Of a stretch of DNA of 47,508 nucleotides, positions 8,681 through 37,898 are shown one piece after another (the stretch's first letter is position 1; each line of letters begins with the position of its first letter). The notes under the pieces are model-generated. The model was not told where the DNA came from and did no database searches. It was given only the letters and a program-made list of their open reading frames with translations. This stretch comes from a virus. Made by a program: the position numbers and the translations under genes. The stretch is from the IMG/VR virus record IMGVR_UViG_3300025326_000064, positions 1-47,508 of that record. One strand, written 5' to 3'.

Positions 8681-9892
8681 GTGGCCAGGATCGCAGAACA
8701 ATCTTACGAAGTTGTCGGTGTCGATACTCTCACCACGCATCCTCAGAATGCGCAGCAGGGAGACATCGGCGCGATACACACCAGCATCGAAACCAACGAC
8801 TTCTACGGAACGATCGTGGTACAAAAATCTACGAAATGGGTCATCGCCGGGAACCACAGACTGATAGCAGCTCGCCAAGCAGGCCTATCACAAGTACCCG
8901 TGGTGTTCGTGGATGTCGACGATGAGCGCGCACTGAAGATGATGGTCGCAGATAACCGAACCACCGAACTCGCCACTCGTGATGAGCAAGCACTCGCAGA
9001 CATCCTGACCAGTTTGAACAACACGCCCGAAGGGTTAGTGGGTTCCGGGTATGACGGTGATGACCTAGAGAACCTCCTCTTCGACCTCGGAAACGGATTC
9101 GACCCAAACGGTTCTGGGTCGGCGTCTGACCCGGAGCCAACCCTCGCTGACGAAGCACAAGCGAAGTGGCTAGTAGAAATCGGAGACACATTCAGCGGCC
9201 AAGGAATCACACTCACATGTGGAGATGCCAGAGACGAGTCTTCGTATAGTCGCATGGACAGTGACGCGAGTGTTCTGTGGACAGACCCACCCTACGGCGT
9301 CGACTATGCCGGGAAGACAAAGGATGCTTTGAAGATCAAGGGTGATGCGTGTACGGAAGACGAGTTGCGTAGTCTCTTGGTTGCTGCTTTCGACGCGGCG
9401 TTTACTCGCCTTTCTGCCGGGGGGGGGTGGTATGTAGCGGCCCCGCCTGGGCCGCTACACCTCGTGTTCCTCGAATCGTTGTTCACGCGGGGTTTGCGTC
9501 AGACGCTGATCTGGCAGAAGCAGCAATTCGTCATGGGTCGGAGTGACTACCACTACAAGCACGAACCTATCCTGTACGGTTGGAAACCAGGAGCTGCGCA
9601 TACATGGACGGGTGGTCGTAAGCAGACCACGTTGCTGGAGCACGACAGGCCACGCGCATCGAAGGAGCATCCGACGATGAAGCCAGTGAGTCTGGTACGG
9701 CAGTGCCTCGCGAATCACGCAACAAAGGAATCGTTTGTGCTCGACCCGTTCTGTGGTAGTGGGACGACTCTTCTAGCTGCTAACCAGCTTGGATTGCGCG
9801 CGCATGGCATCGAGTTGGATCCGAAGTTCGCTGCCGTCACACTGCAACGACTCGAAGACGCAGGAATCAGCATGGAACGCGACCCGTTCTAA
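8681..9892 (+). CDS. ParB-domain DNA adenine/cytosine-N4 methyltransferase
   Basis: 403 residues from a GTG start. Residues about 8-100 form a ParB/Sulfiredoxin-type domain (THPQNAQQGD; WVIAGNHRLIAARQAG; VADNRTTELA). A methyltransferase domain follows with DPPYGVDYAG at 202-211 and, near the C-terminus, the SAM-binding motif DPFCGSGTT (from 355) and HGIELDPKF. DPPY before FxGxG is the beta-class order used by N6-adenine or N4-cytosine enzymes. No partner restriction gene is nearby, so it is an orphan methyltransferase that probably protects phage DNA or marks it. ParB-methyltransferase fusions are common in phages. A strong hairpin (9434-9458) lies inside the gene. Confidence 0.92.
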   Translation: MARIAEQSYEVVGVDTLTTHPQNAQQGDIGAIHTSIETNDFYGTIVVQKSTKWVIAGNHRLIAARQAGLSQVPVVFVDVDDERALKMMVADNRTTELATRDEQALADILTSLNNTPEGLVGSGYDGDDLENLLFDLGNGFDPNGSGSASDPEPTLADEAQAKWLVEIGDTFSGQGITLTCGDARDESSYSRMDSDASVLWTDPPYGVDYAGKTKDALKIKGDACTEDELRSLLVAAFDAAFTRLSAGGGWYVAAPPGPLHLVFLESLFTRGLRQTLIWQKQQFVMGRSDYHYKHEPILYGWKPGAAHTWTGGRKQTTLLEHDRPRASKEHPTMKPVSLVRQCLANHATKESFVLDPFCGSGTTLLAANQLGLRAHGIELDPKFAAVTLQRLEDAGISMERDPF

Positions 9893-14704: not shown

Positions 14705-14907
14705 CTAGCCCAGATCGAACATTGCCGGACAAATGGGCCGCACCGTTCGACCCCGGCGAGCTTGACCTACTGGAACGATTCCAAGACAACCCCGCCACAC
14801 ACAGCTACACATGCCCTGATGGGCACGGCGATCTACAGCCGAACAGGGTCGGCCTTGTGTGCTGGTGTGGATACCTACAGACCTGGAGCCACGCGCATGG
14901 AAACTGA
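14701..14907 (+). CDS. Small Cys/His protein (68 aa)
   Basis: 68 residues. TCPDGHGDLQPNR and CWCGYLQTW contain a C...CxC set with nearby histidines, a plausible zinc site. The start overlaps the previous stop as ATGA. No recognised family. Confidence 0.5.
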   Translation: MTSPDRTLPDKWAAPFDPGELDLLERFQDNPATHSYTCPDGHGDLQPNRVGLVCWCGYLQTWSHAHGN

Positions 14908-15664
14908 TCCACATATGAGCAAGAAATACGAGTTGACCAGCGAGACAATGACCAAGTTCGGCGTGACATTCCGACGCGTGAAAGCACTGCGCGACATCCC
15001 TCGTTTCGGTGTGAAGAAGGGCGACAAGGGCGGATGGGTCGACGCAGAGAAGCGGCTCGATCAAGCCGGCGATGCGTGGGTGTACGGCGATGCGCGGGTG
15101 TACGGCGATGCGCGGGTGTACGGCGATGCGCGGGTGTACGGCAATGCGCGGGTGTCCGGCAATGCGCGGGTGTACGGCGATGCGCTGGTGTACGGCAATG
15201 CGCTGGTGTACGGCAATGCGTGGGTGTACGGCAATGCGTGGGTGTACGGCAATGCGTGGGTGTCCGGCAATGCGTGGGTGTACGGCAATGCGTGGGTGTC
15301 CGGCAATGCGCGGGTGTACGGCGATGCGCGGGTGTACGGCGATGCGCGGGTGTACGGCAATGCGCGGGTGTCCGGCAATGCGCGGGTGTTGGTCGTCACA
15401 AACATAGACGGTATTTCCGTGACGGTTTGGCGAGAAGCGGACGGACACGGAGCGAACTGGAACGGCCGGCGCTCGGTCGACGACGCGGAGCTATGGCTGC
15501 CGGAATCGCACAAGTCGCTCGCGCCGTATCTCAAGGCGCGGGTTGCGGAGTGGACGGTGGACGAACCGGATACAGACGACGGTGATGATCATGCGGAGTT
15601 GATTGAGCGTTTGGCGAAGGCTGAGGCGGAAGTTGCTGCGGTTCGGGAGGCTCTTGCTGTATGA
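14897..15664 (+). CDS. Hexapeptide-repeat (left-handed beta-helix) protein
   Basis: 255 residues from ATG 14897 (GGAG nine bases upstream); the family usually starts at the in-frame MSKKYE at 14915. The N-terminal domain (KKYELTSETMTKFGVTFRRV, DKGGWVDAEK) matches a widespread phage/bacterial family. Then come 18 hexapeptide units of pattern [DN]A[RLW]V[YS]G, the sequence of a left-handed parallel beta-helix. The C-terminal part (VTVWREADGHGANWNG, RVAEWTVDEP) is followed by an acidic and then helical tail. Such proteins are probably trimeric; the cellular role is unknown. The repeat DNA is nearly perfect, so copy number may vary between isolates. Confidence 0.82.
   Translation: METDPHMSKKYELTSETMTKFGVTFRRVKALRDIPRFGVKKGDKGGWVDAEKRLDQAGDAWVYGDARVYGDARVYGDARVYGNARVSGNARVYGDALVYGNALVYGNAWVYGNAWVYGNAWVSGNAWVYGNAWVSGNARVYGDARVYGDARVYGNARVSGNARVLVVTNIDGISVTVWREADGHGANWNGRRSVDDAELWLPESHKSLAPYLKARVAEWTVDEPDTDDGDDHAELIERLAKAEAEVAAVREALAV
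15071..15394 (+). repeat. Tandem array of 18 x 18-bp units
   Basis: Eighteen consecutive 18-base units with consensus GATGCGCGGGTGTACGGC (variants AAT, TGG/CTG, TCC) encode the hexapeptides of the beta-helix protein. Because the period is a multiple of three and lacks stops, long open frames also appear on both strands; these are not genes. Confidence 0.95.
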
Positions 15665-24820: not shown

Positions 24821-26186
24821 AGACGTGGTAACGCTCGATCCGCGCGTGCGACCTCACCGCTCCCAAGTTAAGGTCATCCACGAACTGCGTATTTTGTAGG
24901 CTCCACTCCACACAAATTATGATCCCATGACACGACGCCAAGAGCGGGAACGGATCAGATCCACCAACACCGAATACGTTTCCGGCGCCTGGAAAGCACT
25001 TATTGTCACACTCCACAGTTATCCGGTCGGTGCGACCGTCAATCACAACGCGCGATCCGGGCTTCAAATACGGTATCTCCAGGCTCGCACACAACTGGGA
25101 ATTACCCCACATGCCAGCACTAGCCTCGTCATCACTTGGACAGGGTAGCTTCGGATCAGCCGTGTAGAACTTCACCCGAGCGTTTCGTAGGCCACGCTGA
25201 GAGAACACTGCGTCGTTCGGGTTCTTCCCAGCGTCAATAATGATCCGATAAGTTTCGTCTCGATGAGCTGGCAAATCCTCCAAACAACAGCAGTCGATCG
25301 ACACTCCGAGAGGTTCACAGAAGCAATAGTTCACTCTCTGAGGTGGCGAGGGCAAAACACAAGCTCCGGGTGGGCACAGCGGGTCATCCGTGCAGTCACC
25401 TACTGCTTCGTCGCCGGTTGCGCACCCATTGACCCAATCAAAGCACCTCGTTGCGACGTTCTCTAGATCAGCGTCTTTGTCGAGACACACGACCGGGGTG
25501 ATGCTATAACCCTCTGGTGTCTCGGTCTGAATCGTGAATGTAACTGCGCGCATGCAGCACCGGCACAACGTAGAGTCCTCGTCAACCTCCGCGAGGCCGT
25601 CTATCAACCCTGCGTTCACCCATTGGCGTAGACCTGTGTCTTCGCCCTCGAAGTCTGGGCAACACGTCCGAGCTGTCATACACGTCAACCCGCACGTACC
25701 GAGGTCACCACACCCCGAGAGGCAGCTCCCGGCACCACACCCGCCCAGCTCGAGGGTTCGGCGTACGAATGCCTCGCCATAATCCATCCCACAACACGAC
25801 GTTGCTATGAGCAAGGCTTCTACAGCGAATACTCGACTCCCGACCTGGCCACGACCAAGAGTGACCCCTCGCCCGATATTCTCGGTAGCTGCGCGCTTGA
25901 ACGTGGAGTCATTGAGGCCCGTGACCTTCGTGACGTACATCCCAAGATAGTCCGCGCTCTCTGGTATCAACGCGTCTACCCAACAAGCCCCGTCAGTGAC
26001 CGGGTCTACAAAGTCACTCGGGTCTCCGTCTGCTGGGCACCAGCACTCGTTAGGCATCTCAACGCAGCATCGTTGACCCTGCCACGCTCCCTGACCAGCA
26101 GCCCACTCAACGTACTTAGACAGGCGTGCATGATTCGCCAGTTCCACACACCCGAAGCAGAAGTAGGAGAAAGGGATGTCGCTCAT
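24813..26186 (-). CDS. Cys-rich minor tail protein (distal-tail position)
   Basis: 457 residues, first gene after the tape measure, overlapping it by four bases. Position suggests the distal tail protein (Dit) or a minor tail protein attached to it. It has 36 cysteines by count, including CC, CGxC and CLSGC groups (GCGAGSCLSGCGDLGTCG; LCRCCMRAV; DCCCLED), far more than usual. The C-terminal 200 residues form a beta domain (RIIIDAGKNPND; GSRVVIDGRTDRITVE). The cysteines suggest metal or disulfide stabilisation. Confidence 0.68.
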   Translation of the reverse strand: MSDIPFSYFCFGCVELANHARLSKYVEWAAGQGAWQGQRCCVEMPNECWCPADGDPSDFVDPVTDGACWVDALIPESADYLGMYVTKVTGLNDSTFKRAATENIGRGVTLGRGQVGSRVFAVEALLIATSCCGMDYGEAFVRRTLELGGCGAGSCLSGCGDLGTCGLTCMTARTCCPDFEGEDTGLRQWVNAGLIDGLAEVDEDSTLCRCCMRAVTFTIQTETPEGYSITPVVCLDKDADLENVATRCFDWVNGCATGDEAVGDCTDDPLCPPGACVLPSPPQRVNYCFCEPLGVSIDCCCLEDLPAHRDETYRIIIDAGKNPNDAVFSQRGLRNARVKFYTADPKLPCPSDDEASAGMWGNSQLCASLEIPYLKPGSRVVIDGRTDRITVECDNKCFPGAGNVFGVGGSDPFPLLASCHGIIICVEWSLQNTQFVDDLNLGAVRSHARIERYHVYA

Positions 26187-29100
26187 GCCCGGCTAAACAC
26201 CGCCCCAAGATTCGCACTCATCTGGCGCCTCAGAGCGTGAGGATCCACCACATTCGAGTGCAAGTGCACCTGTGCCTGCCGATTATCCGTCCCCCCACCC
26301 TTCTGAGAAGCCAATCCCTTAATAGCGCCAATAAGCTCCTTGGTACGCCCAGCGTTCATGATGTACCCACTCTGGTGTGGCATGAACATCTCTGCGCCGC
26401 GCTCATTCCACCGGTAGCCACGGCCCTTCTCCACACGACCACCAGCTGCGCGTGGTTGCCACCCGAGGTGTACGTGATCCTGGTGACCACCAACGAAACT
26501 ATTGGTCGGAGCGCCACCACTCCACAACCTATCTAGCCAGATCACCTGCTTGAAAATACTCCCCACCAGGCGACTCGCGAACACCGCGAGCTTCGTCAAC
26601 GTAGCATGCGACGACCTGGAATCTCCGAAGTCAGCGGCCTGGCCCAGAACGTGCTGCGACACGCCAGGCCCAGGAACAGTGTCACCCATACGCAGCCCAC
26701 TGGTCATACCCACACCGAACAAGCGTTCGATCAAGTTCACCATTGAGAGCGTATCCGCCCACCCTGACGTTGGATGCAAGAAACCCAGAGGCCCAGTACC
26801 AACCACGCCACCAGGAACACCCAACCCCTTATTCAACACAGCATTCAGGCTCTTTACTCCCCCACCACCACCGAGAAGGATACTCGCTATCGCATCATTG
26901 AACTTGGATCCAGCGATGGCGCCCTTGAAGAACCCACCGATGTCCCTCACCCACGCCTGCACCGGGCTCCAACGCGTGCGCAGCCCCCTATCGAACCCAC
27001 TCATGATCGCCTGACCAGCTGGTTGTAGGAGTTTCTGGTCAGCACTGACCGGGCCCTTGTTCTTCTTAATCCACACCGCGATACCCCGGATGAACTCCTG
27101 CACCTCCACATACCCAGCTCTGAGGCCCGCAAGTAGCGTGTTCATGATTCGAACACCAGCCGAGAACAACGAAACCCGAGCGAGGAGATTAGCGACGCTG
27201 CTAACCGCCGAGCTGAACTGGAAGATGAACGAGAGTCGGAATGCGAACAATCGGAGAATCAGAATGCGAAGAACACTGTTGATACCACGAAACGCGGCCT
27301 GTACCTGACCAGCCAACCGTGCGATAGCCGGGAACAACGGAGCGGCCAATCTGAGGCTTTCAGCGACAAGCCGTAGATTCTGACTCATCCTACGGAATAC
27401 CGTACTGATAGCAACGATGCGCTCCCTAGCCTTCGTGATAGCCTCCCCAGCCAAGTTATTACGCAACCCAGCCCCCACAGCCCGCAAAGCCCTTCCACTA
27501 CTGACCGCCAATCCCTCAGCGCTATTACGCGCAGTTCTCAGCGTACCCCCAATCGCCTTCTCAGCCGCAGCAAGAGAACCACCCACGGTACGAGCGATAG
27601 CAGGGGTACGATCAAGAGTGGCGTTGGATTGAGCGATCCCCAAGCGCCAACGGTTGAACGCCTTAGCTCCCCTGTCCCCAGCGTCCTGTCCCTGCTTACC
27701 AGCACCCGACAACGCCCTACCAGCAGCACCAGCCGCTCTAGTTGGCCCAGCAAGCGCGGCAGTGGCCTTCGCGGAGAAATCAGTCAACCCAAAGAAGTTC
27801 GCGAGCGTCCCCTTCTCCAACTCACCAGTGACACTCTTCCGAGCATTGTCGAGGCGACGAACCAACTCTGCATCACCAGAAGCGAACGCAGCAGCCCGAG
27901 CCTTAGCTATGCGTTGCAATGCGGATATCTCGGACTTCTCCGCGCCCTTGGTTGCTTCCTCGGCCTCCTTCCGAGCCTGCCTAGCCTCCTGGATTGCGTC
28001 CTTGAGTTTGAAGCCTAACGCCACGATACCGGCACCCACGGCAGCGATCGCCACAGCGATACCAGCTGGCCCGATCAGTGCCAGCCTCGCAGATGCACGG
28101 AACCGTGCGAAAGCACCAGCCACACTCGCACCAACCGCCGTAGCACCAAGACGAGCCAACGCAGGAATTATCACTAGGTTCACGGTGTCAACTATCACTG
28201 CGCCGGCGAGTTTGAAAGCGAATCCCAGACCACTGATATTCAGCAGCAGAGTAGCGAATTTGATTCCATTTATCGCCAGACTCAACGCAGCGAACCCAGC
28301 AACGATCTTCAACAGGAACGGGTGCTCCTCGAACAGTCTATGGATCGCGTTCGCAACGTTGGTGATACCAGTCGCGAACTTAGCGATAACCGGGCCAGTG
28401 GCCTTCGCTAGATCACCCAGCAACGTCAGGACACTCGATATCAGTGGGATGACCTTCGGACCCAAGCTCGTGGTGACAATGTCAATGAAGCTCAAAACGG
28501 CCGGCAATAGCTTAGTCCTCACATCTTCTACGAACTTAGCGAATTCTGGTTGGGAACCAATCTTGAATATCGCCAAGAACAAGTCCTTCGCGAGGCGCCC
28601 CAACGCTAGTAGGCTCGGAGTGAGACTCGCGAAGAAGGCAGCGAGGCTCTTCTTCGTGGATGGCAGGTCAAGGAACTTCGACAACGAAGCGAGATTGTCG
28701 TTGATTAGCTTCAACAGGGAATTCCCCAGCGGTGTCGCCGAGTTGAACACCTGAAGCAACACCTTCCCGAGGCGTCCGATCAGCGTCACGAACAATCCCA
28801 GAGAGTCACCCGACCGGGTGAAGAAATCGTTCAACGCACCCGAACGCTCGGCGCCACCAATGAACGCACTGAACGAGTCAGCGAGTCGGTCAAACCCAGC
28901 GACGATCCTGAGAGTTAACGGCTGGCTTGCTCGAAGAATCTTCAGTAGTGGACTGAAAAACTTACCTATCACCCCACCACCAGACTCAATCAGGCGATTA
29001 TTGAACGACAGAATGTCGCTGATTGGGCCCCTGAAAGCATTCACACCCTCTGCTGCTTTCACCGCCAAGTTACCAAGCGCATCCGCAGTGCCCACCAGTG

Positions 29101-30007
29101 ACGGTAGGAAACTCTCAAACGCGGGTGTAGCTATCTTCACGGCCTGTGTGAGCTTCGGGAATAGCGTTTCCTGGACCGCGGCCCGAATATCTCGAAGGGG
29201 CTTACCCAGCCTCAGGAGCGTCTTCTCGAACGTCCTAGCAGCAGGAGTGAGACGATCAAACGCCTCCTTATTACCACCCAGTGCTTCCTTGAGATCGTCG
29301 AGTTGTAGGAGCTTCGATACGGCCACGACCTGCGCTACAGCTCCGAGTGCTGAAGCCCCAGAAGCTGCTGCTCCACTCATCTGCACGAATGATCCAGCCA
29401 GACCAGCAACCGCACCAGAAAGACCAGCAACACCTGGAGTCAGCGCGCCGATGCCCAGTACAACTCCTGCAGGTATCGCGAACCTTCGTTTGAATAGTTT
29501 CGAGAAGTTGAACCCACCGATTGACCTACTGAATCCTCCAGTGAATAGCGATCCTGTCCGCGACCCCTCCTTGGAGAAGAAACCCGCAAGTTTCCTTTGA
29601 ACAGGTTTCGTGTCAACGTCTGCCTCTATCTCGACTTTCGTTCCGTCAAGAGACTCGATCTTGGCTCTTGCTTTCTTGATGTCTGCGTCGACTTCTGCGG
29701 TTACGTCAAACGAGTCAAGCAAGCTAAGTTGCGCGGCAGCTTCTTTCGTGTCTGCCGTAACGTGTAGGGAAACCTCGCTACCATCCAGCAGGCTCATCTG
29801 CTGCTGGGCCTGCTTAGTGTCAGCACCTACCTTAACCGACACCTTCTCATCACCAAGGGCGACTATCTCTTCCTTAGCTTTCTTCGTATCAGCCTTGACG
29901 CCTACTTCTATGTCGCCCAGACGAGTGTTTTGGAGTTCTTCGAGGGCGCGCCTAAAGTCGAGTTTGACGGTGACGAATGCGGAGCCGATGTCTCCCAGAT
30001 CAGCCAC
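26183..30007 (-). CDS. Tape measure protein with C-terminal M15-like peptidase
   Basis: 1274 residues from a GTG at 30007 (GGAGG nine bases upstream; a frame from ATG 30049 is open but overlaps the chaperone gene). The N-terminus has about five repeats of 24-28 residues (VSVKVGADTKQAQQQM; VTADTKEAAAQLSLLD). Long hydrophobic and alpha-helical tracts follow. Near the C-terminus, SQHVLGQAADFGD and GGHQDHVHLG give the His/Asp and HxH zinc ligands of M15-type peptidases. The protein sets tail length and, on infection, can cut peptidoglycan to let DNA in. It is the largest gene of the genome. Confidence 0.93.
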   Translation of the reverse strand: MADLGDIGSAFVTVKLDFRRALEELQNTRLGDIEVGVKADTKKAKEEIVALGDEKVSVKVGADTKQAQQQMSLLDGSEVSLHVTADTKEAAAQLSLLDSFDVTAEVDADIKKARAKIESLDGTKVEIEADVDTKPVQRKLAGFFSKEGSRTGSLFTGGFSRSIGGFNFSKLFKRRFAIPAGVVLGIGALTPGVAGLSGAVAGLAGSFVQMSGAAASGASALGAVAQVVAVSKLLQLDDLKEALGGNKEAFDRLTPAARTFEKTLLRLGKPLRDIRAAVQETLFPKLTQAVKIATPAFESFLPSLVGTADALGNLAVKAAEGVNAFRGPISDILSFNNRLIESGGGVIGKFFSPLLKILRASQPLTLRIVAGFDRLADSFSAFIGGAERSGALNDFFTRSGDSLGLFVTLIGRLGKVLLQVFNSATPLGNSLLKLINDNLASLSKFLDLPSTKKSLAAFFASLTPSLLALGRLAKDLFLAIFKIGSQPEFAKFVEDVRTKLLPAVLSFIDIVTTSLGPKVIPLISSVLTLLGDLAKATGPVIAKFATGITNVANAIHRLFEEHPFLLKIVAGFAALSLAINGIKFATLLLNISGLGFAFKLAGAVIVDTVNLVIIPALARLGATAVGASVAGAFARFRASARLALIGPAGIAVAIAAVGAGIVALGFKLKDAIQEARQARKEAEEATKGAEKSEISALQRIAKARAAAFASGDAELVRRLDNARKSVTGELEKGTLANFFGLTDFSAKATAALAGPTRAAGAAGRALSGAGKQGQDAGDRGAKAFNRWRLGIAQSNATLDRTPAIARTVGGSLAAAEKAIGGTLRTARNSAEGLAVSSGRALRAVGAGLRNNLAGEAITKARERIVAISTVFRRMSQNLRLVAESLRLAAPLFPAIARLAGQVQAAFRGINSVLRILILRLFAFRLSFIFQFSSAVSSVANLLARVSLFSAGVRIMNTLLAGLRAGYVEVQEFIRGIAVWIKKNKGPVSADQKLLQPAGQAIMSGFDRGLRTRWSPVQAWVRDIGGFFKGAIAGSKFNDAIASILLGGGGGVKSLNAVLNKGLGVPGGVVGTGPLGFLHPTSGWADTLSMVNLIERLFGVGMTSGLRMGDTVPGPGVSQHVLGQAADFGDSRSSHATLTKLAVFASRLVGSIFKQVIWLDRLWSGGAPTNSFVGGHQDHVHLGWQPRAAGGRVEKGRGYRWNERGAEMFMPHQSGYIMNAGRTKELIGAIKGLASQKGGGTDNRQAQVHLHSNVVDPHALRRQMSANLGAVFSRA

Positions 30008-30008
30008 C

Positions 30009-30814
30009 CTATCGTCCTCCGCTCGTTCCTGCCGGTTGCCTATGAACACTCAGTAGGCTCTCACCGGGCTTATTCGTCTGATACCTGGACGGGTCTAGCA
30101 CGCGTTGTGCCGCCCCGGCCCCAGCGTTCGGTGCCCAATGCCAGTCTATCGCCGACCCTAGCTCCCGCTCTAACTCACCGTGCTTCTCAGGGTCACACGC
30201 AGTCCAAGCCCACGCCTCAACCAACGCACAGAAGCGGCTTAGAGACTCATTCAGTAGGCTCAGAGAGGGGTACGCGGCGCACACGGCGTCGTACTGCATG
30301 GTGTAGTAAGCGAAGAGTGTTACTACTCGTCCAAAGGGACGCCGCTATACAACTCGATGAGCGCTTCGAGGAAGTGCGCGAGGTAGTCCCCATTGATCCC
30401 ATCCTTATTGTCTAAGTCGAGTTCCAACACCTCGTCGTAGATGGGACGATCAGCAGCGAAGATTGCCTTACGGACAGCTTCGATAGCGACCTCGGGCCTA
30501 GACTGAGCAGCAGCGAGGTCTACCAACACACGAGCACTCATCTTCGAGTAGATACGAATCGTGCGGTGCCGACCAAACGGTACGGTAAGGGGCTCCGCGT
30601 CCCCGGTGTTTTCGCGTAGTTCTGCAGCGATCTTATGAAAGCCCCTAGTGGCCGCAGCATTGAGTTCCGCGTCTGCTACCGATCCGAGACTCGGCGGTGC
30701 GACACCATGACCCACCAGTGGAGTCCCAGATACTTGACCGGTTCCATTAGAGGCTACTGGTGTTGCTTCTGGTTGTGGTACGGCTACTGGGCCCGCCGTG
30801 GTGCTTCCGGTCAA
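30009..30814 (-). CDS. Tail assembly chaperone fusion by -1 frameshift
   Basis: Translation of the upstream chaperone (30323-30814) can slip -1 at CCCTTTG (30332-30338) and read on to 30009, giving a fusion of 268 residues: 161 from the first frame and 107 from the second. The second frame is open from the slip site to the ATG-bearing part (MQYDAVCAAYP). The lambda gpG/gpGT arrangement is conserved in siphoviruses, just upstream of the tape measure. The extension (CALVEAWAWTACDPEKHGE) is tryptophan-rich. Confidence 0.85.
30323..30814 (-). CDS. Tail assembly chaperone (gpG-like)
   Basis: 163 residues. A disordered Pro/Gly/Thr-rich N-terminus (about 45 residues) is followed by a helical domain (FHKIAAELRENTGDAEPL; RVLVDLAAAQSRPEVAIEAV; YLAHFLEALIELYSG). 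It lies between the gp10-like gene and the tape measure and ends with a classic slippery heptamer. The role is to bind the tape measure during tail assembly with the frameshifted longer form. Confidence 0.85.
   Translation of the reverse strand: MTGSTTAGPVAVPQPEATPVASNGTGQVSGTPLVGHGVAPPSLGSVADAELNAAATRGFHKIAAELRENTGDAEPLTVPFGRHRTIRIYSKMSARVLVDLAAAQSRPEVAIEAVRKAIFAADRPIYDEVLELDLDNKDGINGDYLAHFLEALIELYSGVPLDE
30332..30338 (-). promoter_or_regulatory. Programmed -1 frameshift heptamer CCCTTTG
   Basis: On the minus strand the zero-frame reads GTC CCT TTG GAC GAG TAG; slipping one base back on C CCT TTG leads into the second chaperone frame. The XXXYYYZ form with XXX=CCC and YYY=TTT is canonical. 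No downstream pseudoknot was modelled. Confidence 0.85.
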
Positions 30815-30827
30815 AACGACCCTCCTA

Positions 30828-31397
30828 TTAGAGGCTGAGCTGTTGTGGGCCTAGCTTACGACCAGCCTCGGACACCGCATCCCGCACAATATGCTTCGCA
30901 TCAATCCCCGACACCACATGACCCCTAGAGAAGACAGCAGAACCCTCACCGCCACCAGGCGAAGAGAAGAAACGAATCGCACCCGGACGACCAGGATTCG
31001 TAAACGACCTGCGACCCGGAGGCGCAGGAGCAACACGATGCGCTTCGGTACCTTCTTCGAGGTAGATCGCGTGCTTCGCCGTGTTACCAAACCGCAACTC
31101 GGGCGGACTTCCTGGCACTAGTTGCACCTTGAAACTCCGCTCATACACACCAGTACCACCATGGATACGCTCCTGCGTAATACCCTGCGCCTCCTTCAAA
31201 CAAACAGCGCCGAAGCGTGCAAGGAACTTAGTCATCTCGGGATGAGATTCCAGCTTCGCCATATCAATATCGAAGGTGATACTCACGGCGTTGCTGGCGT
31301 ACCGCGCCACGCGACACCGAAGATTCCCCGCTCCGATATCTGCAAGACAAGTTTCGGCATGTTTTGTCCTTATGGGGTGGCTTGTGCGCTTCGCCAA
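30828..31397 (-). CDS. gp10-like tail completion/connector protein
   Basis: 189 residues if started at ATG 31397; GTG 31286 (VSITFDID) gives a 152-residue protein that fits the family better. Family features: EMTKFLARFGAVCLKEAQG, YERSFKVQLVPGSPP, TAKHAIYLEEGTEAHRV, as in HK97 gp10-like proteins at the neck. They close the head-tail connection. Overlap with the propeller gene (27 bases if 31397 is used) is unusual. Located between the second major tail protein and the chaperones. Confidence 0.68.
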   Translation of the reverse strand: MAKRTSHPIRTKHAETCLADIGAGNLRCRVARYASNAVSITFDIDMAKLESHPEMTKFLARFGAVCLKEAQGITQERIHGGTGVYERSFKVQLVPGSPPELRFGNTAKHAIYLEEGTEAHRVAPAPPGRRSFTNPGRPGAIRFFSSPGGGEGSAVFSRGHVVSGIDAKHIVRDAVSEAGRKLGPQQLSL

Positions 31398-33109
31398 GCG
31401 ATCCCAAATACATTCCTGTCGATCCCGGTGTCCCCGCCAAGATCATGGGTAATTGGGGCGGTCGGGACAGCGACCGTTAGATCAGCAATGACAATGGAGT
31501 TGTTCCTTGTACCTGTTCCATTTTGATATAGGGATGCAGCCTTTGTTCCATCCGAACTATATGAAATACACAGACCGCTGTTCCCGGATAGGGCGAAATC
31601 TGTTGTTCGCTTTGTGGTGGTTAGAGGGTCTGTTACCGGGAAGGTGTAGAGAGCGGCAGTCGTTCCGCTTTCTGGTAAAAGCACCACGACGGTTGTTGCA
31701 TCTGGTGACAGATCCCAAGCATATGGAGTCTGTGGGAAGTTGACGAATCCTTGAACCCCAGTTGCAACATCCTGGGTATAAAAATTGTCGCTGGTGTCGA
31801 AAAAATATAGCGTAGTGGAATCTGGGCTCCACATGATGCGCCAAGACGTAGCGTCACTCGTCTCATACGGGGCATCAAGCAATACCGTTGATTCACTGAC
31901 AAATGCTCCCGCATCCGTGCGAACTCTAACCAGATAATCTCCGCCACTGTTGGTTTCGACGAAGTATGCGACCATCGTACCATCGGGAGACCACGCAACA
32001 GTACGATAATCCTCGTCGTCGCCAGCGTTGGATGGCTGAATAGTCGTATCTACATCGGCAAGGGTCGCCTTGTCGATAGACCCAGATCCTCCCGTGTTGT
32101 CATATCGGTATGCAACATTTAGGTTGTCAGGGCTGATTGCCGGATATGCAGCGAACTGCATTTGATCTCCGCCACCAGTTCCAGTGGCCACAAATACGCC
32201 TGAGTCGTCATATACAAACCACGCATCGCCGAACTGATCTCCCGTGAAGCTGGCTCCACCAGTCATGGCAAGGATTGCGAATATGGATTTGTCCTGGCTC
32301 CTTCCCAAAACGGTTGGAACAACTTCATTGGTTCCGATTTCGGGAAGGGTAGTCAAAATGACCGACGAGGAACCGTCTTCTTCAACTGCCCATACCGCCC
32401 TGGCGTCCAAATCTGGAAACTCTTGGCTCAGCACCAGGAATCCGGGTGGTTCGGGGCATGGTACTTCGATGGCTCCGCAAGCTACGGTTGGTACGGTGGT
32501 GTCCTCGAACCAGAAGTAGTCGCTCCTGGTACCAGCTGGTGCGGTGGTGGCGTACGCGGGTATGTCGTCGAATGGGCCGGTACCAACAGCTGAGAGCAAC
32601 CGATCCTTGCTCTTGCCCTCGATCTGCAGGATACGGAAGATTCCTTCTCGCTCGTTACCTGTCCACTTGAGTCTGACGGCTGGGAATATATGGCGGAAGT
32701 ACACGGGGAGACCGGTCTGACAATCATCGGTCTTCTCGAACAACTCGACGAACACGTAGGGAGAGCATCCCTGAGCTATGTGTTGCACGCCAACGCTGTT
32801 TCCGGCGTTGACTACGAGGTTGTCGCCACTGACGAGTGCGAGGAATTCTGGGTCAGGGTTCTTGATCTTGAAAGCGAGGTTCCACCGCTTTATCTGGTCA
32901 CAACGGTCATCACGGAGGCAAATGTTTCCACAGTTGTCTTTGACTATGGATTCTTCGCCTTCCTCGATCTCAGGCGACCATTCGGGTTCGATGATGCATC
33001 CCATGGCGTACCCTTTGAGGGGCCCGCAGATGGGGTCGAATGTGCACGAGTCAAGGAGTGCCACACGGATGGCTTCTATGCACTTAGCTGGACGACAAAC
33101 CTGTGTCAT
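31370..33109 (-). CDS. Major tail protein 2 with C-terminal beta-propeller
   Basis: 579 residues from ATG 33109, matching the start of its paralogue. The N-terminal 217 residues align without gaps to the major tail protein at 34430 (174 identical by count). The other copy stops two residues after IEVP; this one continues for about 362 residues of TolB/WD40-like repeats. Blade signatures: YPAISPDNLNVAYRY, VAWSPDGTMVAYFV, IMWSPDSTTLYFF, WDLSPDATTVVVLL, ISYSSDGTKAASLY, about seven blades. A propeller on a tail-tube subunit would project from the tail surface. It could bind host or environmental ligands, or cap a specific tube position. The region encoding it has a lower G+C feel than its neighbours, suggesting acquisition. 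Confidence 0.82.
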   Translation of the reverse strand: MTQVCRPAKCIEAIRVALLDSCTFDPICGPLKGYAMGCIIEPEWSPEIEEGEESIVKDNCGNICLRDDRCDQIKRWNLAFKIKNPDPEFLALVSGDNLVVNAGNSVGVQHIAQGCSPYVFVELFEKTDDCQTGLPVYFRHIFPAVRLKWTGNEREGIFRILQIEGKSKDRLLSAVGTGPFDDIPAYATTAPAGTRSDYFWFEDTTVPTVACGAIEVPCPEPPGFLVLSQEFPDLDARAVWAVEEDGSSSVILTTLPEIGTNEVVPTVLGRSQDKSIFAILAMTGGASFTGDQFGDAWFVYDDSGVFVATGTGGGDQMQFAAYPAISPDNLNVAYRYDNTGGSGSIDKATLADVDTTIQPSNAGDDEDYRTVAWSPDGTMVAYFVETNSGGDYLVRVRTDAGAFVSESTVLLDAPYETSDATSWRIMWSPDSTTLYFFDTSDNFYTQDVATGVQGFVNFPQTPYAWDLSPDATTVVVLLPESGTTAALYTFPVTDPLTTTKRTTDFALSGNSGLCISYSSDGTKAASLYQNGTGTRNNSIVIADLTVAVPTAPITHDLGGDTGIDRNVFGIAWRSAQATP

Positions 33110-33125
33110 AGGGTAAGCATACTTT

Positions 33126-33626
33126 CTACTCGACGCAGCACGTACTGAACACAACAGGAACCCTGATTATCGCGCTCCGACAACCACCAGAAGGACTCCC
33201 CCACAGAATCTCCGGAGAAGCAGTAGACGCGTCGCAACACGCGGTCACTCCTTGTATAGAACCAATGGTTCCACACGCTTCGCACGCGATGCAGTTATAG
33301 ATCAGCCACGCGTCTCTAAGGATGCACGCAGCAGCGGCTTCTACCTCTGCGGGGGATGGTGGTTCGTACCCACCGCCACTGTTGAGTTCCCCAACTGGTT
33401 CGCAGCACCTGATCAGTGTGATATCGAGGTTCGCGGAGAGTTGTACTCGGCCCACGCATGACCCGCTGTGCGCTCTGGCTTGTCCGATTACCACGGTGAG
33501 GCTACTGCAGTCCGCTACAGGTGGGCTGGTATCGACGTTTTGCCGCGAATAGTCCGTGCAGTTCTCGTCGAGGCATTCGAGGGCCAGTGCTAGGGCGGCT
33601 TGTGCTGCGTCCCAGAGAGGATTCAT
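33126..33626 (-). CDS. Head-tail connector-region protein, Cys-rich
   Basis: 166 residues from ATG 33626, overlapping the adaptor stop as ATGA. Helical N-terminus (LWDAAQAALALALECLDE) and C-terminal half with many cysteines (ILRDAWLIYNCIACEACG; VTACCDAS). Position suggests a tail terminator or head closure protein. No firm family. Confidence 0.55.
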   Translation of the reverse strand: MNPLWDAAQAALALALECLDENCTDYSRQNVDTSPPVADCSSLTVVIGQARAHSGSCVGRVQLSANLDITLIRCCEPVGELNSGGGYEPPSPAEVEAAAACILRDAWLIYNCIACEACGTIGSIQGVTACCDASTASPEILWGSPSGGCRSAIIRVPVVFSTCCVE

Positions 33627-34366
33627 GGCGTAGGGAACACCTGTCTTGGGCCTTGCAGGCTGGGGTGCCATACTCGAGCCCTAGCCCGACTACAGTTGTA
33701 CTGAGATACCGCACTGTCTACCATGGCGAGGCCGCTTACCCTGCCGGAAACTGCGCCTTCGAGTGCGGTGATGTCCATGCTGATCCCCTGCCTCGATACG
33801 TGCGTGACGTTGCGGGGGAGCCTACAATCAAATCCGTTACACGCCCGCTTCATCTCACAAGCCAACTCCGCAGCGGCCATCTGCAGCTCTATCGGCGGGA
33901 GCCTTCCAGCGGTGTACGAAACCTGGAACGTACGAGGCTCAGTGGCCTCCAGTATCAAATCGTTACACGCTGGCCAACACGCACCATCCGTCCTTACCAA
34001 CCGGTGATAATCATCCAAACGGTAAGAGCTTTCCGGTACAACCTCCCCGTCTATCAACACCTCGTCAATGCTGACAATGGGGTACTTCTCCTGCAGGTCA
34101 ATGTAGATGTACCTGCCACACCCACACTTCTTACGGTTACAACTGCAATACCCGCATGGCCTGACCGTTACTTCGCAGTGCCCGGGGTAGAGGCTGCAGG
34201 TCGCTCGGTACAGGATCCCTGTAGCGGCTTCGATGAGTTCTTCGTCTGTCCAAGCATACGAAGCAACTACGGGGTCGCCTGTTTCGCAGTCGACACTTAC
34301 GGCGTCGGGGCAGCAGAGCTTATCTGGGGTAGTCCAGGGCTCGCAGAACTCTACCGGGACACCCAT
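33623..34366 (-). CDS. Head-tail adaptor
   Basis: 247 residues. ASYAWTDEELIEAATGILYRAT is the helical N-terminal of gp6-type adaptors of actinophages; the middle has a dense Cys cluster (RPCGYCSCNRKKCGCG), then YIYIDLQEKYPIVSIDEVLIDGEVV and FQVSYTAGRLPPIELQMAAAELA. About 18 cysteines in all. Adaptor function (binding the portal ring below the head) is inferred from family features and the neighbourhood. Confidence 0.65.
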   Translation of the reverse strand: MGVPVEFCEPWTTPDKLCCPDAVSVDCETGDPVVASYAWTDEELIEAATGILYRATCSLYPGHCEVTVRPCGYCSCNRKKCGCGRYIYIDLQEKYPIVSIDEVLIDGEVVPESSYRLDDYHRLVRTDGACWPACNDLILEATEPRTFQVSYTAGRLPPIELQMAAAELACEMKRACNGFDCRLPRNVTHVSRQGISMDITALEGAVSGRVSGLAMVDSAVSQYNCSRARARVWHPSLQGPRQVFPTP

Positions 34367-34429: not shown

Positions 34430-35089
34430 TCACTGCTCTGGAACCTCGATCGCTCCACATGCCACTGTCGGAACAGTCGTATCCTCGAACCAGAAGTAGT
34501 CCGACCTAGAACCAGCAGGAGCAGTAGTAGCATAACCAGGGATGTCGTTATACGGCCCATCATCCACATCAGCAAGAAGAACGCTAGTGGTCTTACCCTC
34601 GATGGTCAACGTGCGGAAGATCCCCTCGCGCTCATTACCGGTGTGCTTGAGCCTAATGGCGGGGAACACGTGCCTGAAGTACACGGGCAGACCTGTCTGG
34701 CAGTCATCGGTCTTCTCGAACAACTCCAGGAACACGTATGGAGAGCAGACCTGCGCGAGGTGCTGCACACCCACACTAGTACCGTCATTCACGATGAGGT
34801 TCTCCCCACCGGTCAGCTGGATGAATTCTGGGTCCGGCTGCTTGATCTTGAACGATACATTCCACCGCTTGATCAGGTCACACCGGACGTCTTCGAGGCA
34901 GATATTCCCACAGTTATCTTTCACCGTGGATTCTTCTCCCTCTTCTATCTCTGGGCTCCACTCGGGTTCGATGATGCACCCCATAGCGTACCCGTTCACC
35001 AGTCCTTCGACGGGTTGGTACGTGCACTGATCTAGCAGTGCTACTCGAATCGCTTCGATGCACTTAGCTGGTCGACAAACCTGTGTCAT
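34430..35089 (-). CDS. Major tail protein 1
   Basis: 219 residues from ATG 35089, with GGGAGG upstream. It begins MTQVCRPAKCIEAIRVALLD; then SPEIEEGEE, DNCGNICLED, VGVQHLAQVCSPYVFLELFE, features of actinophage tube subunits. It is nearly a truncated copy of the protein at 31370-33109. Position upstream of the adaptor, rather than between the neck genes and chaperones, is unusual and suggests a duplication. The tube polymer of the tail is probably built mainly from this short form. Confidence 0.82.
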   Translation of the reverse strand: MTQVCRPAKCIEAIRVALLDQCTYQPVEGLVNGYAMGCIIEPEWSPEIEEGEESTVKDNCGNICLEDVRCDLIKRWNVSFKIKQPDPEFIQLTGGENLIVNDGTSVGVQHLAQVCSPYVFLELFEKTDDCQTGLPVYFRHVFPAIRLKHTGNEREGIFRTLTIEGKTTSVLLADVDDGPYNDIPGYATTAPAGSRSDYFWFEDTTVPTVACGAIEVPEQ

Positions 35090-35131
35090 AACAACCCCTC
35101 CCCAGGGCAATGCTTACTATGTGACAGCTTA

Positions 35132-36251: not shown

Positions 36252-37898
36252 CTACTTGTACAACAGATTCAGGACAACATCATTCGCTCCGGGCGTACCA
36301 GTACTTGTATCAAGAACCCCAGTCACAGCACCCACACCGATGCCCAATGAAAATGCAATACCATTAGAAAACTCTACATTCGCAGCAGACGATGCCGGAA
36401 TACCGATTGTCATTACAGGAGTGTCAGTGCCGACAGTGGGCGCAGACGCCTTATTGTAGAGCTTCAAATACCTGGTAGATGTGGCATTGTTGTACACGTA
36501 GTATCCGTATACCTGCCCGGCGGAAGCCTTGACGTTCACTCCAGTTTCGTCCACATCAAGATTCTTGTAGACGCTGCTGCCGCCTGAAGTTTGTGGAGCC
36601 AGACTAACCTGCCCGATCAGGTTAGTTCCTGCTGGCAATGCCACATCAGTAGCAAGTACAACCCTCTGTGTCAACGCCGTAACTACGCCACTTGCGCCCT
36701 GGACTCCTGCCTGACCAGCAATAGGATTGACCTTCGCACGATCAGATTCGTCCCAATCATCGATTACAGACAACGATGCTGCGGACGCTGTAATATCGGC
36801 ATTGTCGACGGTTAACGAACCGCCGTTATCGTCGACGCTGAGGCTACCCCCCAAATCTGTAACGCCCAGCCGCCCCGCAGAGTCCGTAGACAACTGCGAA
36901 TAGTCCCCATCGGTTGACGTTGTGGCAGCTGCAGCGTCGTTACGCACTGCGAGCGATAGCGTTCCCCGATCACCACCTACAAACGCATCGTCTTCCAAAT
37001 GCGTTGGATCATTCGTAACGCCCAGTGTCCCGTCGACAGTGATAGAACCACCACCGTCGTCGATACTCAGCGTCGCACCGCCATCATCGACGCTGAGGCT
37101 ACCACCGTTGTCGTCAACGCTCAGTGAACCACCAAGATCAGAGACACCAACCCGGCCAGACGAGTCGGTCGAAATCTGACTATAGTCACCATCGGTTGAA
37201 GTCGTGACGGCAGCGGCGTCGTTGCGAACACCCAGCGCGTACGCGCCCCGATCACCACTTACAGCAGGAGCGTCCTCGAGCTTCGTTGGATCGTTTGTGA
37301 TTGAAACCGTGCCATCCACAGTGACTGGGCCAGCGCCATCGGAGATCAGTACGGGAAGTGGATTCGCGGCGCTAACGGTTGCTAGGGTATCGCCCGTGTC
37401 TTCCCATAGGATCGCCTGCCCCGTGATCGAAGCGTCAACGTCGCCTTCCGTGTACTCAGTGTTTGTTGCCGACCCACTAACAACATTCACGTCGAGAGGA
37501 GTACCCCCGTCGTCCACTGAGAGCGACCCACCAAGATCAGCGACACCAACCCGACCAGCGGAGTCTGTGCTGATCTGCGAATAATCCCCATCCGTTGAAG
37601 TCGTCACAGCAGCTGTATCGTTGCGGACTCCCAGCGCGAAACTACCCCTGTCCCCTGATGCTGCTGGGTCGTCTTCGAGGTGTGTTGAGGCTTCGAGGGT
37701 ATTGGCGCTATCGTTGATCGTTGTGAGTAGCGCGTTCGTTTCTGCGCAGCAATCCTCCAGGTCGTCCGTGTCGACCTCAACGTCGCCCGTGAATGTGACG
37801 GGGACGGGGTTCCCGGCATCATTCTTGATCTCTACCTCACCAAGAATCGTTACATCGGTGATTGTGACATCGGAGCAGTTTGGAGCTACTGGGCTCAT
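36252..37898 (-). CDS. Three-repeat virion surface protein
   Basis: 548 residues. Three repeats of about 60 residues at about 73-130, 207-264 and 300-360 (LEDD/LEDA...GDRG..ALGVRND, TSTDGDYSQISTDSAGRVGV, DLGGSLSVDD), joined by SVDDGG-type strands. The C-terminal 150 residues (VLATDVALPAGTNLIGQ; GQVYGYYVYNNATSTRYLKL; VEFSNGIAFSLGIG) are a common phage module. Probably elongated and on the virion surface. DNA of the repeats is conserved, so recombination between copies is possible. The host ligand is unknown. Confidence 0.65.
   Translation of the reverse strand: MSPVAPNCSDVTITDVTILGEVEIKNDAGNPVPVTFTGDVEVDTDDLEDCCAETNALLTTINDSANTLEASTHLEDDPAASGDRGSFALGVRNDTAAVTTSTDGDYSQISTDSAGRVGVADLGGSLSVDDGGTPLDVNVVSGSATNTEYTEGDVDASITGQAILWEDTGDTLATVSAANPLPVLISDGAGPVTVDGTVSITNDPTKLEDAPAVSGDRGAYALGVRNDAAAVTTSTDGDYSQISTDSSGRVGVSDLGGSLSVDDNGGSLSVDDGGATLSIDDGGGSITVDGTLGVTNDPTHLEDDAFVGGDRGTLSLAVRNDAAAATTSTDGDYSQLSTDSAGRLGVTDLGGSLSVDDNGGSLTVDNADITASAASLSVIDDWDESDRAKVNPIAGQAGVQGASGVVTALTQRVVLATDVALPAGTNLIGQVSLAPQTSGGSSVYKNLDVDETGVNVKASAGQVYGYYVYNNATSTRYLKLYNKASAPTVGTDTPVMTIGIPASSAANVEFSNGIAFSLGIGVGAVTGVLDTSTGTPGANDVVLNLLYK

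Follow-up and report, generated by a model that had tools for sequence, protein, structure and literature searches.

A Second Major Tail Protein Gene with a Predicted C-Terminal Beta-Propeller Points to a Probable Two-Gene Decorated Tail Tube

Introduction

Why would a phage carry two genes for the protein that forms its tail tube, and join a whole beta-propeller to one of them? The question is raised by the IMG/VR virus record IMGVR_UViG_3300025326_000064, which was analysed over a stretch of 47,508 nucleotides (the window). The C-terminal domains of siphophage tail proteins project outside the tube (PMC9022992), and the reviews consulted describe only Ig-like or related small domains as tail-tube decorations (PMC8718954, PMC9022992). 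In SPP1, a plain and an FN3-extended tail protein are produced in a 3:1 ratio by frameshift (PMC8718954), and the tail extensions of the lactococcal 936 phages bind host cells (PMC6669499). Searches of an open-access library did not find a propeller-bearing tail-tube protein.

Results

The original prediction, made from the sequence of the window, proposed a duplicated major tail protein with one propeller-bearing copy. Both open reading frames were found at the coordinates it gave, and the features are as follows:

34430-35089, minus strand: short copy, undecorated major tail protein of 219 amino acids (phrog_792, E 7.6e-13; gene order of related phages)
31370-33109, minus strand: long copy of 579 amino acids, tube domain plus propeller
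32459-33109, minus strand: tail-tube (major tail protein) domain of the long copy, residues 1-217 (phrog_792, E 1e-11; 174 of 217 residues identical to the short copy)
32441-32458, minus strand: linker CPEPPG at the fusion point of the long copy (alignment of both long copies, see below)
31370-32440, minus strand: PD40/TolB-like beta-propeller module, seven motif repeats, through the stop codon (PD40, TIGR02800, AlphaFold2, Foldseek, low GC3)

The identity of 174 residues without gaps, as originally counted, was confirmed over residues 1-217. Chance similarity of the two copies is excluded by their tblastn score (E 1.6e-124), by their shared matches to phrog_792 ('major tail protein') and by a dN of about 0.15 against a dS of about 2. 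Since identity is 86-88% at codon positions 1 and 2 and only 48% at position 3, with a dN/dS of about 0.07, the copies are old enough for their silent sites to be saturated, and they are under strong constraint. The long copy is a separate complete gene, and a programmed-frameshift origin of the long form was rejected on this ground.

The short copy terminates as ...CGAIEVPEQ, while the long copy reads ...CGAIEVPCPEPPGFL... at the same point; in other words, beyond IEVP the short copy stops as IEVPEQ and the long copy runs into IEVPCPEPPGFL. The extra domain thus stands after an intact tube domain, with the join following IEVP. The proposed exact coincidence of the fusion point with the end of the tube domain is supported by a distant tail protein encoded on an Acidimicrobiia contig, which likewise ends with CGxIxVP and a few more residues. 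A usable model of the tube was not obtained with AlphaFold2 run on the full long protein together with 11 tail-protein sequences (mean pLDDT of 41).

The Pfam PD40 profile, the NCBIfam TolB profile, AlphaFold2 and Foldseek agree in assigning the C-terminal part, originally described as about 362 residues of TolB/PD40-like propeller, to that fold. The part following the join scored 27.0 bits against Pfam PD40 (PF07676), above the curated cut-off of 20.9, and matched NCBIfam propeller_TolB (TIGR02800) with an E value of 3.5e-5. We rejected the possibility that it is TolB itself, as its 22.9 bits compare with an equivalog cut-off of 343.15 for TIGR02800; it is TolB-like in fold only. The predicted number of about seven blades is matched by seven SPDG-type motifs, at residues 271, 326, 374, 428, 468, 518 and about 574, which span about 359 residues. 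When the module was modelled separately with AlphaFold2, together with 14 PD40 proteins of loci retrieved by pattern, it came out as a propeller with a pTM of 0.68 and a pLDDT of 65; module residues 210-290 reached a pLDDT near 90, the first 100 residues were low and the first two blades were poor. The best Foldseek matches of this model in the PDB were beta-propellers, with TolB first (E 1.2e-9); the TM-scores were only about 0.45 because the start of the model is poor. When viral models were searched, Foldseek matched propellers and WD40 proteins encoded by phages and giant viruses; no tail-tube protein was named among the 50 matches listed. The suspected A+T richness of the propeller DNA was also verified: its GC3 is 0.49, against a mean of 0.61 (standard deviation 0.04) in the other structural genes, and is lower than in all 730 sliding windows examined. 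A close relative of the propeller was found neither in the searched genomes nor in the viral contigs, and the propeller itself had no PHROG match.

The two copies are embedded in a head-to-tail gene cluster comprising the following features:

33623-34366, minus strand: head-tail adaptor between the two tail-protein genes (phrog_783, E 1.9e-42)
33126-33671, minus strand: phrog_810-like connector-region gene directly before the long copy (E 0.0021; same position in related phages)
30828-31397, minus strand: HK97 gp10-like tail completion/neck protein directly after the long copy (phrog_5, E 6.6e-6)
26183-30049, minus strand: tape measure protein of 1288 amino acids (length; location between chaperone-like genes and minor tail proteins)

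Related actinophages arrange their genes as capsid hexamer, capsid pentamer, major tail protein, adaptor, the gene at the phrog_810 position, the gene at the gp10 position, chaperones and tape measure, and have a single annotated tail protein, upstream of the adaptor. The short copy occupies this standard place, between the capsid genes and the adaptor and upstream of the tape measure. The long copy is an extra gene located three genes past the short copy, between the phrog_810-like and the gp10-like genes. A 548-residue protein (36252-37898), encoded between the capsid genes and the short copy, contains long internal repeats (RNDxAAVTTSTDGDYSQISTDSxGRVGVxDLGGSLSVDD); no family was found for it. 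Elsewhere in the window, a ParB-type N-terminal domain is fused to an N6/N4 DNA methylase (8681-9892), and a protein with seven YdcK beta-solenoid repeats is encoded at 14762-15664.

The regions preceding the two tail-protein genes differ in their predicted pairing with the anti-Shine-Dalgarno sequence:

35090-35111, minus strand: strong Shine-Dalgarno region of the short copy, ggggagggg (predicted duplex, -13.4 kcal/mol)
33110-33131, minus strand: upstream region of the long copy, with almost no Shine-Dalgarno (-0.4 kcal/mol)

Judging from this difference, production of the long subunit is probably lower than that of the short one, bearing in mind that Shine-Dalgarno strength is a rough predictor and not a measure of expression, and that translational coupling could compensate for a weak site.

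IMG/VR was searched with tube-domain, adaptor, propeller and phrog_838 queries, and a single close relative emerged, IMGVR_UViG_3300031949_000064 (47,631 bases), the orthologs of which are about 67-72% identical to those of the window. The architecture with a short and an extended long copy was seen in these two genomes only. The tail-protein genes of the relative are:

L003:6350-7021: short copy, before the adaptor
L003:10001-12193: long copy of 730 amino acids, before the gp10-like gene; outer module at residues 221-730

The corresponding predicted Shine-Dalgarno pairings are -10.8 kcal/mol (short) and -7.0 kcal/mol (long). Both long copies contain IEVPCPEP at the join, the linker then reading CPEPPG in the window and CPEPEG in the relative. 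In the latter, IEVPCPEP is followed by about 110 unassigned residues and then by a delta-60-repeat region with seven repeat ends spaced by 47-61 residues (TIGR02608, E 3.8e-9; 36.3 bits, under the cut-off of 76.5). The join of the relative's long copy thus probably leads into a propeller of another class, and it seems that the outer module was exchanged while the joining point stayed the same in both phages. In both long copies the GC3 of the outer module is below that of its own tube domain; the values for the relative are 0.62 and 0.74, respectively. Two other genes of the relative have extra features, both with a GC3 under that of most neighbours. One encodes the phrog_810-like protein (L003:8252-9307), which has about 115 extra C-terminal residues after CCPPPAEPG, a linker resembling that of the long tail protein. 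The other is an extra TIG-like gene (L003:9368-9982) located after it.

To trace the history of the copies, we compared four tube domains, i.e. the short and long ones of the window and of the relative. Amino-acid sites with a two-by-two pattern group 21 times by genome, three times by copy type and once otherwise. Trees forcing a long-long or a short-short clade were rejected by the AU test (p = 4.4e-7 and 3.4e-5, respectively), and the short and long copies of the relative formed a clade with full support, while the pairing of the window copies is permitted, not proven. Such grouping by genome would also result if the long copies arose by two independent, more recent duplications instead of descending from one ancestral long gene, and duplications do recur elsewhere, as propeller-free duplicates exist in two distant contigs (L156 and L160). 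This scenario, however, requires the insertion position, the CPEP(P/E)G linker and the kind of outer module each to have arisen twice, and we regard it as unlikely. Because both phages share the insertion position and the linker, we favour gene conversion or co-evolution as what keeps the two copies of a genome similar, over separate duplications; within-genome similarity of the tube domains is expected if the two copies co-assemble and evolve together. Independent duplications would change the history, not the function, and can be reconciled with a decorated tube. In the two distant contigs just mentioned, each with two major tail protein genes devoid of propellers (L156:6290-8691 and L160:1745-3981), the a copies cluster apart from the b copies, unlike the copies of the window.

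The genomes scanned for the tail protein, 397 from a single actinobacterial phylum and 395 from an Acidimicrobiia-centred class, yielded one distant tail protein only, and no relative of the portal was found in the genome that encodes it. One contig from the Acidimicrobiia search (L207:5443-6132) has genes for a capsid protein, a pentamer-like protein and a distant tail-tube protein, which gives a hint of the lineage's host group. In contig L157 (8603-10459), the head-tail adaptor has 618 amino acids instead of about 277 and contains an in-frame intein-like insert (CFPAGTMVTTIGG...VHNC). An HNH-endonuclease-like reading frame lies between a tail protein gene and the adaptor in L156 (8766-9302), and similar ones follow the tail protein in L157 and L160.

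Discussion

From these findings, we think it rather likely that the locus specifies a two-gene decorated tail tube, in which the long subunit is the less abundant one and presents an adhesion propeller that can be exchanged. The tube would be built from two paralogous subunits encoded by separate genes, the short one being the bulk subunit. The long subunit would contribute the same ring-forming domain, followed by a short Cys/Pro/Glu linker and a seven-bladed PD40/TolB-like propeller that, by analogy with other siphophage tails, we infer to project outward from the tube. It would take a minority of the tube positions, so that the large decorations fit without clash. The propeller would most likely provide the tail with additional low-affinity adhesion to the host envelope or to the surroundings, and the outer module would be exchangeable at the same join. 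A propeller is about 5 nm across. Carried by every subunit, in rings about 4 nm apart, propellers would be crowded, and mixing in plain subunits would avoid this crowding. The co-assembly, the lower dose and the adhesive role of the long subunit are likewise what we infer. The outward position of known C-terminal domains, the mixing of two forms in SPP1, the crowding argument and the cell-binding extensions of the 936 phages together lead us to favour an outward adhesion module on a minority of subunits. We give about even chances to the proposal that the long gene is specialised for display: gene conversion or co-evolution would keep its tube domain in step with the bulk subunit, unrelated propellers would be swapped at a fixed join, and a weak ribosome-binding site, not a frameshift, would set the dose.

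The strongest rival concerns the position of the long subunit, which might form one special ring at an end of the tube, most likely the head-proximal one, so that its propellers make up a neck collar instead of being dotted along the tail. In both genomes the long gene lies between the phrog_810-like connector and the gp10-like tail-completion genes, its weak ribosome-binding site would suit a low copy number, and the lactococcal 936 phages have carbohydrate-binding neck collars (PMC6669499). Gene order is nevertheless a weak guide to position, and the within-genome similarity extends across the whole tube domain, suggesting that both copies make the same ring and inter-ring contacts; we consider a collar possible but not probable. 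It is more doubtful still that the propeller is an enzyme, e.g. a lyase or a glycosidase degrading surface polymers, rather than a plain adhesin. Some propellers are indeed enzymes, and an oligogalacturonate lyase was among the matches of the first model, but the top structural matches are non-enzymatic TolB and WD40 proteins, no catalytic family exceeded its cut-off in the profile searches, and the relative probably has another class of propeller in the same slot. We give the least credit to the idea that the long gene is a fusion without function or expression, or a chimera of the assembly. Its very weak ribosome-binding site would be consistent with this, but its 579 codons are open, its tube domain evolves with the low dN/dS reported above, and a counterpart gene exists in an independent assembly. 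The chimera in particular was rejected as very unlikely, the same architecture occurring in two separate assemblies. The duplicated major tail protein with one propeller-bearing copy, as originally put forward, is backed by family profiles, gene order, structure prediction and the architecture of the relative.

The decorated tube that we propose has partial counterparts in known systems. Like SPP1 gp17.1/gp17.1*, it comprises two forms of one tube subunit, one with a domain after the tube domain (PMC8718954); however, gp17.1* is produced from one gene by ribosomal frameshift and adds one FN3 domain, whereas here the extended form has a separate paralogous gene and a whole propeller. TpeX of the 936 phages likewise extends the C-terminus of some tail subunits by a large part that can be exchanged (PMC6669499), but it is made by frameshift and carries a BppA-like carbohydrate-binding module, in place of a second gene and a propeller. 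Lambda gpV, T5 pb6, YSD1 and Bxb1 also possess a C-terminal domain, located outside the tube in those systems (PMC8718954, PMC9022992, PMC8704799); in these cases there is one gene, all subunits are decorated, and the domains are Ig-like or of about 90 residues. The phrog_792 tail proteins of the actinophages A3Wally, Jeon, Forza and DSL-LC01 share the tube-domain family and the gene order with the window, but they are single-copy, and their extensions are absent or at most about 150 residues long, with no propeller. Finally, free-standing WD40/PD40-type propellers are encoded by phages, and some of them match virion structural protein families, yet none was found fused to a tail-tube subunit.

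Most known decorations of tail tubes are Ig-like or carbohydrate-binding domains, which either sit on all subunits or are appended by frameshift. A tube gene of its own for a propeller of roughly 40 kDa, replaced by another kind in a relative, would represent a different route to mixing decorated and plain subunits. The fusion point would also mark a natural site at which the tail tube accepts large folded domains, and the system would offer a direct test of what tail-side decorations do.
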